A stretch of 64,000 bases of DNA, from assembly GCF_002775205.1 (NCBI RefSeq), contig NC_036453.1:9023594-9087593 (forward strand), given 5' to 3'. Made by a program: the position numbers and the translations under genes. The notes under the pieces are model-generated. The model worked only from the letters and a program-made list of their open reading frames with translations. It ran no database searches and had not been told where the DNA came from. Position 1 is the stretch's first letter, and each line of letters begins with the position of its first letter. Below are positions 12,495 through 19,290 of this stretch, in pieces. This stretch comes from Xiphophorus maculatus (lineage: Eukaryota > Chordata > Actinopteri > Cyprinodontiformes > Poeciliidae).

Positions 12495-13052
12495 ATTGAA
12501 TATGTAAAATGCTCAATATTTCTACACAGCTATGAATTTAAACAGCATGTTGTTGTTTGATGTGGGTCTTTAATGTAGGAAAAGAACAAGGCATACATAT
12601 TTCATGCTGCCATTTCTTGACTGGGAATAGTCAACGATTACTCATCTTTAAGTGGGAAAAGTATGTGGACCTTTGGTTTTGATGCAGGAATAAGAGATTC
12701 TACACATTTCAAGAGAATACTGATAATATTTTAGCCTTTTCTTCCACACAGAACAGGTAAACTCCACATTTTCTTACCTGAAATGTATTACAACTTTTTA
12801 AAACTACACATGCAACTGAATATTATGTTTACTACCCTGATGCATCAAACCCATGAGACACCCAAAGAGCTGCGAAAAAGCCTTAAAGACATGTATGAAA
12901 AGTGGACGATTCCAGAGAAGACAAAAGAGCAAATAGGAGATGTCGTAGTGCTATAGCAGTTTCTTAGAGTTCCCACTGTACTGAAGAGACGCATATGCTT
13001 TCTAAGGCAGCTGTGTAGGGGCATGTGACCGCTTCTTACCACTGTGCCACGA

Positions 13053-13093
13053 CCTTCGAACGACCTCAGTTGGTAGAGCGGAGGACTGTAGAG
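13053..13093 (+). pseudogene. tRNA-Tyr 5' half, truncated by hAT insertion
   Basis: The acceptor 5' strand, D-arm with GTTGGTAGAGC and the anticodon arm up to CTGTAGAG are present. They are then cut by a CAGTGGTCCCC hAT-type terminus. The 3' half is not found downstream. Confidence 0.85.
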
Positions 13094-13740
13094 CAGTGGT
13101 CCCCAAACCCCGGGCTGTGGATCGGTACCGGTCCGTGGACCAATTGGTACCGGGAGTGCAAGAAATAATTAGAAATAATTAAATATTTCCGTTTTATGTA
13201 ATATTTGATTCTGGAGGATCTTTTATTTTGAAAATCCTTTGAAAGGATTCTCTCGGTTACATCTTGCACATCAACATTGAGCCCACAAACAGCAAAATGA
13301 GTAAGAAACAGATCAGATTCTTTGGAAAGTTTCTTTGCAAAGGGGAAAAGGCCCAGAGAAGAGACAGGAGAATGGATTTATCCTGGTAGGTGATTCCCAC
13401 ATTCCAAGCTCTGCATGATATAGTGACCGGCTCGTTAATGAGGCAATGAAGCCTTCAAACTGCTTCGCCACGTAGAGACCCAGCACCCTGTGCATAAGCA
13501 ACACTTCGGGTGTCATTGTCTCTCATCACTCCCGGATGCGACCGTCTTGTTGCAGAGAAACAAGCTTAGGGCTCCCGTTAGTCGTTATCGTGAGTTAAAA
13601 TTTTCACAAAAGTAAAATGTTCGTTTTTGTGGCACATCTGTATCTTATTTTGAAGGTATATGTAAACGTTACCATAGCGACCAGAGTCAGAGAGCGTTAG
13701 GGCAGTGGTCGAGACGAGACAGTGGCACTTATGATTTTTA
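13094..13740. mobile_element. hAT-type transposon remnant
   Basis: It begins with CAGTGGTCCCCAAACCCCGG, a terminus of the same type as the hAT MITE at 42033-42270, directly inside a tRNA-Tyr. A partial frame starting at 13299 (MSKKQIRFF) recalls the start of hAT transposase ORFs but is quickly broken. No matching right terminus or repeat of the target octamer was found, so the right side is deleted. Confidence 0.55.
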
Positions 13741-13741
13741 G

Positions 13742-14510
13742 GTCAGGTTCACACGGCATGATTTAAGGATTGTCAGACAATTTTCCAAACTTCTGTGACC
13801 ACACACGACACGAGCTGATAAAAGTACAACAGGTTCGATCGGTTCCTGTGTCCAGCCACACGGCAGGAGCAACACACCACACACCAACTGATTCCACTCA
13901 CGAACATCCCGAATCCAGAAGCAAATCCAGTAAAACTCCCATCATACCATATGTGAATTTAGAATAATCAAGCACAGATGACCATGTGGAAGCAGTAGTG
14001 ATAGTCTGTGGACTCATTTTAAGCGATGAAAAACGTAACAAAAAGAAAAGGAGTTTGATAAAAGACGGCGGGAGCAGCTGCTCTATATGCTGCACTATGA
14101 TTTGGAGGTGAGTTATGTTTTTTCGTAATTAACATTTTAAGCTGAATACTGTAAACATAACCACATATAATAAACATATATAAAATGACCTTTACATATA
14201 GCAATAAACATTCCCACATATCACCTCTGATGTCCACTGGACACTCAGTTGCGCCATGTCAACTGTTTGGGATTCCCCTCCGTGCTTACGTCACCGCTCT
14301 TTCTGATTGGCTACCTGTCACATTCAACAGGTTGCTTTCTCGCTCCCAGTCAGGAAAAACCCAACAGGCTGCGATAAAAGGGCCAAGACAATGTTGAATA
14401 TGCCACATTTTAGATTGGGCATATTCAACACACCACTGCGTAACAGACCACACAATGCAGGACATTGTAAGATTGTCGTAAAGGGAAAATTGGGGCAAAA
14501 AAGGGCTTTA
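13742..14510. mobile_element. segment homologous to the interior of the 20-25 kb hAT pair
   Basis: Shared blocks include GTTCACAC..CATGATTT at the left, GGTTCGATCGGTTC, the CACATATCA..TC..TGTCC..TGGAC block, and GATTGGCTACCTGTCACATT. All occur in the same order in the copy at 23432-25450. It sits in the tRNA array between the broken Tyr and the first His and has no coding capacity. Confidence 0.6.
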
Positions 14511-14599
14511 GCTGGAATGTTAACATGCAGAAGCATTATGTGGCTGCATTATCTGAAAGGTTTGTTAGAAGTAGCTGACGAAAGATATTCTAGTAGGAA

Positions 14600-14671
14600 G
14601 CCGTGATCGTATAGAGGTTAGTACTCTGCGTTGTGGCCGCAGCAACCCCAGTTCGAATCCGGGTCATGGCA
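14600..14671 (+). tRNA. tRNA-His (GTG), array copy 1, possibly defective
   Basis: It has a 72-nt cloverleaf with GTG anticodon in the CTGCGTTGTGGCCGCAG arm, an A-box resembling TCGTATAGAGG and a B-box GTTCGAATCC. The acceptor stem pairs fully with one G-T. The T-stem has one A:C mismatch. Function is uncertain. Confidence 0.7.
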
Positions 14672-14682
14672 TTCGGGGTAAA

Positions 14683-14754
14683 AGCAGAGTGGCACAGCGG
14701 AAGGTTGATGGTCCCATAACCCAGAGGTTGATGGATAGAAACTATCCTCTGCTA
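14683..14754 (+). pseudogene. initiator tRNA-Met pseudogene, array copy 1
   Basis: It starts 12 bp after the His gene. The acceptor ends (AGCAGAGT and CTCTGCTA) survive, but the anticodon stem and T-loop (GATAGAAAC instead of GATCGAAAC) are altered. Confidence 0.8.
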
Positions 14755-15021
14755 TGCTAATCTTTTTTACAATACATTCAATGTGTCTAATTGACCTGCC
14801 CATCTCATTCCTCCTCCTCGTCTCTTGCTCTTCTGTCAAAAAGTTCTGAGCTGCGTCAGAAAATTTATTACAAATTAATCCATCTAACATCTTTCTGAGC
14901 TGTTCCAAAGATCTGAGTCACATAAATGATGACTATTACTGAAACCTCTGCTCCTCCATTGTCTACTGTCTAGGAATAAAGAGGTCCCTCAAGCTGCCCT
15001 CCTCTCAAGGGTTTTGACGGA

Positions 15022-18366: not shown

Positions 18367-18454
18367 CCTTCGATACCTCAGTTGGTAGAGCGGAGGACTG
18401 TAGAGTACAAAGGTGGACATCCTTAGGTCGCTGGTTCCTCTCTGGCTCGAAGGA
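18367..18454 (+). tRNA. tRNA-Tyr (GTA) with intron, possibly defective
   Basis: The acceptor stem is perfect (CCTTCGA/TCGAAGG). The anticodon loop CTGTAGA is followed by an intron containing TAC, which can pair with the GTA anticodon as in normal pre-tRNA-Tyr. A TTTTT terminator lies 4 bp downstream. The D-stem has one C:C mismatch and the T-loop reads TTCCTCT instead of TTCGATT, weakening the B-box. Confidence 0.65.
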
Positions 18455-18532
18455 CTCTTTTTCTCTTTTTTCCAAATCTTCAGAGGAAAGGTTTGTTAGG
18501 AGTGACTGATGAAAGAGACATCCAAGTAAGAA

Positions 18533-18604
18533 TCTGTGATTGTATAGAGGTTAGTACTTTTCGCTGTGGCCGCAGCAACCACGGTTCTAATCCGGGTCAC
18601 GGCT
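18533..18604 (+). pseudogene. tRNA-His pseudogene, array copy 4
   Basis: GTG is kept, but the acceptor begins TCTGTGA, the anticodon stem reads TTTTCG and the T-loop is TTCTAAT. Confidence 0.75.
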
Positions 18605-18615
18605 TTGGCAATAAA

Positions 18616-18687
18616 AGCAGAGTGGCTCAGCGGAAGCGTGCTGGGCCCATAACCCAGAGCTTGATGGATCGAAACCATCCTCTGCTA
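18616..18687 (+). tRNA. initiator tRNA-Met (CAT), near-intact
   Basis: The 72-nt gene has correct ends, the initiator-specific GGGCCCATAACCC arm and a GATCGAAAC T-loop. I see about three differences from the vertebrate initiator consensus: GGCTC for GGCGC in the D-arm and GCTTG for GGTCG in the variable region. It is the best iMet of the array. Confidence 0.75.
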
Positions 18688-19038
18688 TGTTAACCTTTTG
18701 ACAATACACTCAATGGCTCTGACTGACCTGCCCATCTCATTCCTCCTCCTCTTGTCTCTGTGCTATTTTGTCAAGAAGCAAATATTTTCCAAAATATTTG
18801 TTCTGAGCTGCTTCAGAACATGTTTTACAAATGAATCCTTCTAACACCTTTCTGAGCTGTTCCAAAGATCTGAGTCACATAAATGATGACTATTACTGAA
18901 ACCTCTGCTCCTCCATTGTTTACTTGACCCTTAGGGAATAAAGAGGTCGCCTCAAGCGGCCCTCCTGTCAAGGGTTTGGGATGAACCCGAGGACTCTGCA
19001 CGGGCCCGCGGCGGGTGTGGAAACAGAAAAAACGTTAC

Positions 19039-19104
19039 TTGAGCAAGCCAGACCTAGACTCTTCTGATCTGTCATCAGACGCGTTATCCATTGGCCACTA
19101 ACCC
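19039..19104 (-). pseudogene. tRNA-Arg pseudogene
   Basis: The anticodon loop reads TGACAGA (normal TTACGGA), so ACG is lost. The T-arm is shortened as in the copy at 15938. Confidence 0.75.
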
Positions 19105-19195
19105 ATCTCACGGCAAGAATCTCCTTTTCATCGTGTCGGACCACGACTGACTGGGCGGAGAGTGTGGAAAAGTAATTGGATTAATCAAAACCCAT

Positions 19196-19267
19196 ACCCC
19201 GTGTGAGGGTTGAATTCACGACCTTCAGATTATGAGACTGACAAGCTGCCTACTGCGCCAACGAGGC
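19196..19267 (-). pseudogene. elongator tRNA-Met (CAT), mildly degenerate
   Basis: The acceptor GCCTCGT/ACGGGGT and the anticodon arm CAGTCTCATAATCTG pair well. The D-stem second strand is GCTT and the T-loop is TTCAACC with one stem mismatch. It closes the array. Confidence 0.65.
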
Positions 19268-19290
19268 TCAGCAAACCCTAGACTGAAAAG

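Follow-up and report, generated by a model that had tools for sequence, protein, structure and literature searches.

A decayed tandem array of multi-tRNA units in Xiphophorus maculatus and its probable living relative on another contig

In the genome of Xiphophorus maculatus (704.3 Mb in 101 contigs), a stretch of contig C11 crowded with damaged transfer RNA (tRNA) genes raises the question whether such a cluster still serves the cell or is what remains of one that did and, in the latter case, where its working counterpart lies. The window, i.e. the whole stretch of DNA that was analysed, comprises 64 kb of the forward strand (C11:9023594-9087593; 38% GC, CpG observed/expected 0.44). By unit alignment, its positions 12974-19300 (C11:9036567-9042893) hold five head-to-tail tRNA units, U1 to U5, in which Tyr, His and initiator Met (iMet) genes on the forward strand are followed by Arg-ACG and elongator Met (eMet) genes on the reverse strand. 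Several lines of evidence indicate that this array is very probably dead and related to a multi-tRNA tandem array that is still alive on contig C2.

An initial annotation of the window, made from its letters, had described about four units with five tRNAs each. The array is real, but there are five units, and the full set of genes is present in U1, U4 and U5 only; U2 and U3 have lost eMet and Arg-ACG, apart from a 3' stub of the latter in U3, and U3 contains an extra Arg-CCT gene. The ~1-kb periodicity was recovered both by self-BLAST, with unit-versus-unit matches offset by 999 and 2105 bp (E-value 0.0), and by a repeat search, whose families number 2 to 4 copies each and include spacings of 988-1000 bp. 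An Rfam tRNA search of positions 12001-20400 gave 16 matches at E<=10, of which 12 reached the gathering score (11 of the 21 scorable members of the five types, plus Arg-CCT), while six of the 21 (Tyr U1, His U3, iMet U3, iMet U4, Arg U1 and Arg U5) had no match at all; ARAGORN called 10 tRNA genes in the array, so that tRNA-like matches go well beyond one or two. Rfam and ARAGORN together place these genes from ~14.6 to 19.3 kb; the unit alignment brings in one more, a truncated Tyr near 13.06 kb. Neighbours of different type lie less than 1000 nt apart, as in heterogeneous tRNA gene (tDNA) clusters, and larger gaps are confined to U1, at its inserts. Gene order, strands and spacers are kept between units, in line with the proposed duplication of whole units.

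A search with one exact pattern, a 38-mer of the intact iMet gene, listed at least 37 matches genome-wide, and all of those listed lie on C2, from 27859132 to 27896517, at a spacing of 1009 bp in 34 of 36 intervals (the other two being 2018 and 1024 bp). The 46-kb region analysed there contains, besides partial units, 37 full ones that are each exactly 1009 bp long, and it is the larger homologous array that had been suggested as something to look for. Thirty-five of the 37 units are identical to their consensus, one has 1 mismatch and one has 2; the unit at the right edge matches at 97.9% and has an insertion, the adjoining partial unit at 98.9%, and the fragments past these at 91.5% and 94.3%. 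Runs of 323 and 74 N lie close to the two edges of the array. ARAGORN found 194 tRNAs in the region: 39 each of Arg-ACG, eMet, His and Tyr (the last with an intron), 37 iMet, and one further iMet body whose anticodon is CAC. The C2 unit shares the order, strands and spacers of the genes with the window array, and both repeat several tRNAs with their spacers head to tail. Near-identity of the copies, spacers included, is seen on C2 and not in the relic, whose spacers are 9.5-29.3% apart between units; moreover, Rfam scores are 57.5-63 bits in live members versus 23.8-53.6 in the relic, where 15 of the 21 members give a score at all. No spacer match of the window array was found to 16 other tRNA-containing loci of the same genome, where 90 of 92 BLAST hits fell mainly in tRNA parts and two in the miniature inverted-repeat transposable element (MITE) of U1; likewise, the His-iMet pattern had no match in viral and genome contig collections, nor had U4 in plasmids. 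A dispersed relic of a tandem gene family is termed an orphon, and the window array has the homology to a tandem family at another chromosomal site that such a relic should show. The annotated "snapshot of birth and death" therefore captures the dying side, since the members decay as described, whereas the living side lies elsewhere, in 37 full copies on C2.

In one live unit (C2:27866864-27867872), the iMet gene has the anticodon CAC together with a second change near the end of the T stem. The same CAT-to-CAC change occurs in relic U2, and the two probably arose independently.

The relic units would share ancestry with the C2 array and, residing on C11, would lie outside its homogenisation, the uniformity of C2 itself presumably being kept up by unequal exchange or conversion. 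Having lost selection, they would then have decayed through substitutions, at CpG and other sites, through deletions and through the insertion of transposons; continued recombination among them would have spread some of the damage. As to direction, we lean towards a move from C2 to C11. The opposite order, in which C11 is the ancestral site and the C2 array a younger transplant after which C11 was left to decay, is the less likely variant of the same account: it fits the near-identity of the C2 units, as after a recent amplification, and the far greater variety of the relic units, but ongoing homogenisation would make the copies of a tandem array equally alike, and their identity is no measure of when the array arrived.

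Damage to the relic genes was counted against the live C2 unit instead of the human tRNA sequences used first; several departures common to all relic copies, e.g. in the eMet T loop, were dropped as damage since the live unit identifies them as the normal sequence of this genome. None of the 21 scorable members equals the live unit. In 20 of them a CpG base is changed or an indel is present, the exception being Arg U4 with 2 substitutions; this agrees with the annotated CpG-type or indel damage in nearly every member. A changed CpG base is present in 19 members and an indel, truncation or replaced end in 7. CpG bases were changed three times as often as others (63/242 versus 112/1295). Nevertheless, just 63 of the 175 substitutions are at CpG bases and most damage thus lies elsewhere, for which reason CpG decay was rejected as the bulk of it. 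Tyr U1 and the 3' end of His U3 align poorly, which inflates their substitution counts, and the U1 alignments contain a 2-nt artefact at the junction of an insert resembling a long terminal repeat (LTR; the sequence up to 15020 and that from 15875 onwards were retained) that adds insertion columns only. The isolated tRNAs of the window, Trp (60826-60897) and Glu (61454-61525), are intact, each with 72/72 bases equal to the human gene, in agreement with the annotated foldability of isolated members.

If the relic were under selection, its tRNAs should be better conserved than its spacers. Compared with the live unit, tRNAs of U1, U2, U4 and U5 diverge by 0.073-0.117 and spacers by 0.150-0.236 (Fisher p 0.0001-0.0009). 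A two-fold gap of this kind is what would be expected if the live tRNAs stood still and the spacers of live and relic units both went on changing. Among the relic units themselves, the ratio of spacer to tRNA divergence is 0.68-1.42 over 10 unit pairs, and in none of them are the tRNAs significantly better conserved; at the extremes are U4/U5 (0.68, p 0.044), where the tRNAs are the more diverged, and U2/U4 (1.42, p 0.155). The statement that spacers are conserved as well as the tRNAs consequently holds among the relic units, and points to near-neutral decay. Three further tRNA arrays in this genome, i.e. 39 Arg-bodied genes, 51 of 52 Cys genes and 31 calls that are mostly Thr (some counted twice, as their loci overlap), gave body divergences of 0.031, 0.029 and 0.058 versus 0.114, 0.143 and 0.188 in the 5' flank, or ratios of 3.2-5.0 (80 random pairs each, 100-nt flanks). 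In the relic, His (body 0.142, flank 0.130) and Arg (0.115 and 0.103) have flanks that are not more diverged than the genes. As expected of an orphon, constraint on the genes has been lost, with a weak residual signal in this 5' flank comparison.

These comparison arrays have features of their own. In the tandem array of 39 Arg-TCG-bodied genes (L009 and L010; C11:27638000-27656000), 12 genes are of Arg type except for their anticodon, which is TTG, that of Gln, and lies one CpG transition away from TCG; 6 of these 12 differ from the commonest Arg sequence solely at that base; such anticodon-shifted tRNAs, intact-looking and numerous, merit separate study. The dense Thr-tRNA array (L003, L007 and L008; C3:28776146-28782287) combines AGT, TGT and CGT anticodons with closely similar bodies and includes one Thr-like body whose anticodon, CCT, is that of Arg; it is present in both overlapping loci L007 and L008. 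The tandem array on C24 (L011 and L012; C24:4908000-4927900) contains 52 tRNA-Cys genes.

It is very improbable that the window array is a working cluster with varied members, some copies of which serve translation or make tRNA fragments. Such a reading can draw on the 11 of 21 members and the Arg-CCT that pass the Rfam gathering score, on a run of four T (T4) within 60 nt after 14 of 15 Tyr, iMet, Arg and eMet members, and on the strict B-box match of Arg-ACG U4. Yet a strict B-box match was found in just 7 of 19 members tested, every scorable member departs from the live unit, the relic pairs show no significant excess of tRNA conservation, and C2 offers an intact supply of ~37 units. That the tRNA-like copies are short interspersed elements (SINEs) or retroposed copies, and not segmental duplications of a tRNA array, is practically untenable: tRNA-derived repeats are common in vertebrates, but here the spacers between genes on both strands are collinear, the unit recurs head to tail, and C2 has a 1009-bp genomic unit of the same order.

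The dead units did not decay in isolation. Relative to the human tRNA sequences, departures confined to a single unit number 86, those common to some units 26 and those common to all 11, at least part of the last being the normal sequence of this genome; this count excludes, at least in part, badly aligned stretches (Tyr U1, His U3 3' end) as well as the T arms of Arg U1 and Arg U5. U1 and U5 have the same 7-nt and 1-nt deletions in Arg-ACG, and U2 and U4 have five Tyr changes in common, including GTA to GTT in the anticodon. In the spacer right after iMet, U4 and U5 are the closest (5/73), while in the right spacer U1 and U5 (16/175) are slightly closer than U4 and U5 (18/179). Which of U1, U4 and U5 is the odd one out varies by segment (130 sites, CpG columns removed, permutation p 0.0008), the segments being gene and spacer boundaries of our own choosing. 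Unrooted trees of two short blocks group U2 with U4 (support 98, left block) and U1, U4 and U5 (76, right block), with 57-58 for the other nodes and U3 apart. Damage common to subsets of units indicates that dead genes were copied or converted after death, and its conflicting distribution that dead units went on exchanging or duplicating pieces.

A number of observations weigh against a dead array of common origin with C2. The comparison of U3 with the live unit gives no gap between tRNAs and spacers (0.216 versus 0.234, p 0.62), and spacers are the more diverged in 6 of 10 relic pairs, although never significantly. The overall 5'-flank/body ratio of the relic is 1.4, on a measure similar but not identical to that of the other arrays (flanks 60-80 nt long, for the four gene types other than iMet), and the flanks are more diverged than the bodies in Tyr (0.252 versus 0.154) and eMet (0.250 versus 0.098); some constraint may thus have persisted for part of the array's history, of which a trace may still be visible. 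The trees set U3 apart with weak support, and the five units may have more than one origin. Judging from their sequences, Arg-ACG U4, with its 2 substitutions and strict B-box match, and His U1 and U4, with 3 substitutions each, could still be transcribable, and the Arg-CCT of U3 is nearly intact. Finally, the perfect identity of live C2 units could be exaggerated by the assembly.

The live unit also has a peculiar arrangement of its His and iMet genes, which are separated by a spacer of 11 nt with one sequence in 38/38 pairs and without T4 from the start of His to the end of iMet. A T4 starts within 9 nt of the live Tyr, eMet and iMet genes and not of His; within 40 nt it occurs for 39/39 Tyr, 39/39 eMet and 38/38 iMet genes and for 0/39 Arg-ACG genes. 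In the relic, the 11-nt distance without T4 is found in 4/4 spacers tested, although the spacer sequence varies, and the His body of U5 holds one internal T4. As in dicistronic genes, a short spacer without RNA polymerase III terminator separates the two genes, and we infer that the live His and iMet genes may yield a joint precursor. The live Arg-ACG genes weaken the missing T4 as a mark peculiar to His and make it an imperfect sign of a joint transcript, since the polymerase may stop at other signals here; iMet, as tRNA genes do, also has its own internal promoter, which likewise counts against a joint precursor. More tentatively, and at less than even chances, the initiator tRNA would come essentially from one locus, an array of ~37 near-identical 1009-bp units under concerted evolution resembling that of ribosomal DNA, as the second half of a His-iMet transcript, with pieces outside it dying as pseudogene clusters.

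The features of the relic array are collected in Table 1. The Arg-CCT of U3 equals the human gene in 72/73 bases, the sole difference, at base 2, breaking an acceptor-stem pair; it took the place of the His end together with its own 5' flank (~70 nt, aligning to no other unit), and no further Arg-CCT copy was seen within the window. For the composite insert no target duplication was found; its start we take, from its motif, to be a hAT-like terminus, and its part 14211-14350 is seen again at 21479-21638 and 23997-24144. Members of the family of the nested MITE lie at 48152-48390 and 58379-58562.

Table 1. Relic units, inserted tRNA gene and insertions in the window array (window positions; genes on the reverse strand are marked (-))
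Feature	Position	Strand	Description	Genes	Evidence
U1	12974-16174	+	All five genes in order; split by two insertions	Tyr 5' half to 13093; His 14600-14671; iMet 14683-14754; Arg-ACG (-) ~15945-16016; eMet (-) 16094-16166	Alignment, Rfam, live-unit comparison
U2	16175-16630	+	Stops after iMet; Arg-ACG and eMet gone	Tyr 16255-16342, anticodon now GTT; His 16420-16491; iMet 16503-16574, anticodon CAC	ARAGORN, Rfam, alignment
U3	16631-17347	+	Most diverged unit; eMet gone, Arg-ACG reduced to 3' stub 17330-17347	Tyr 16674-16761; His from 16839, 3' end replaced; Arg-CCT; iMet 17049-17116	Rfam, alignment
Arg-CCT in U3	16974-17046	+	Inserted sixth tRNA type; top tRNA score of the array, 56 bits		
U4	17348-18285	+	Five genes in ~1 kb	Tyr 17368-17455 (GTT); His 17534-17605; iMet 17617-17687 (1-nt deletion); Arg-ACG (-) 18044-18116; eMet (-) 18207-18277 (2-nt deletion)	Rfam, alignment, live-unit comparison
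U5	18286-19300	+	Five genes in ~1 kb	Tyr 18367-18454; His 18533-18604; iMet 18616-18687; Arg-ACG (-) ~19040-19110 (8 nt deleted); eMet (-) 19195-19267	Rfam, alignment, live-unit comparison
Composite insert	13094-~14545		Cuts U1 Tyr; right edge approximate		
Solo-LTR-like insert	15022-15872		In U1 iMet-Arg spacer; TGTTACG...CGTAACA; 5-bp target duplication ACGGA		Target duplication read directly
MITE	15238-15463		Nested inside solo-LTR-like insert; 8-bp target duplication GTCTAAAG		Target duplication read directly

Elsewhere in the window, an open reading frame (ORF) at 56641-57003 encodes a peptide with a match to neutrophil cytosol factor 1 (E 7e-19), which points to a vertebrate, and a reverse-strand ORF at 48685-49356 has ALKBH8_N as its single Pfam match and resembles, in our reading, the reverse transcriptase tail of a long interspersed element. 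Two long microsatellites are (AGAC) with 53.8 copies at 99% (10661-10875) and (TA) with 51 copies at 100% (43871-43972).

The relic by itself is ordinary, decayed tRNA clusters being expected in teleosts. A dead and a living copy of one unit in one genome, in contrast, amount to a direct experiment on tRNA-gene turnover: C2 shows what is maintained under homogenisation and selection, and C11 what disappears in their absence. Moreover, the case points to a vertebrate in which a single tandem block may hold the initiator tRNA genes. No title or abstract on this array or on the His-iMet pair was among the matches listed in our literature search, which is no proof of absence from print. Fission yeast has dimeric tRNA-Ser/initiator-Met genes in which the initiator follows a few nt behind the other tRNA without a terminator between them; here the partner is His and the joint transcript is predicted from sequence. 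The 3.18-kb tDNA tandem repeat of Xenopus also has several different tRNA genes per unit, with a length and gene content different from those of the present unit.

Among teleosts, according to Bermudez-Santana et al. 2010 (PMC2888827), 87% of stickleback and 65% of zebrafish tDNAs are clustered, clusters may count fifty and more members, and local duplication is named the prime suspect. The heterogeneous clusters described there resemble the window array in having different tRNA genes and pseudogenes less than 1 kb apart; nearly all Danio pairs, however, are parallel, whereas three and two genes lie on opposite strands in the unit found here, and the passages considered do not mention a dead array with a uniform live counterpart. 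Another article (PMC4833346) gives, in the passages considered, only a tRNA count for another fish. The Entamoeba tandem arrays (PMC2652664) likewise have units of up to 5 tRNA genes and mostly uniform copies within an E. histolytica isolate, but they belong to a protist that has almost all its tRNA genes in arrays, with short tandem repeats between the genes in E. histolytica and E. dispar. The human variable-number tandem repeat at 1q23.3 is also a vertebrate tandem unit carrying tRNA genes (PMC4041453) and differs by its 7.3-kb unit, 9-43 copies and CTCF binding, the unit here being 1.0 kb. Arrays of this kind are thus already known, and what X. maculatus adds is a near-uniform live array paired with a dead relative and the apparent supply of initiator tRNA from a single site.

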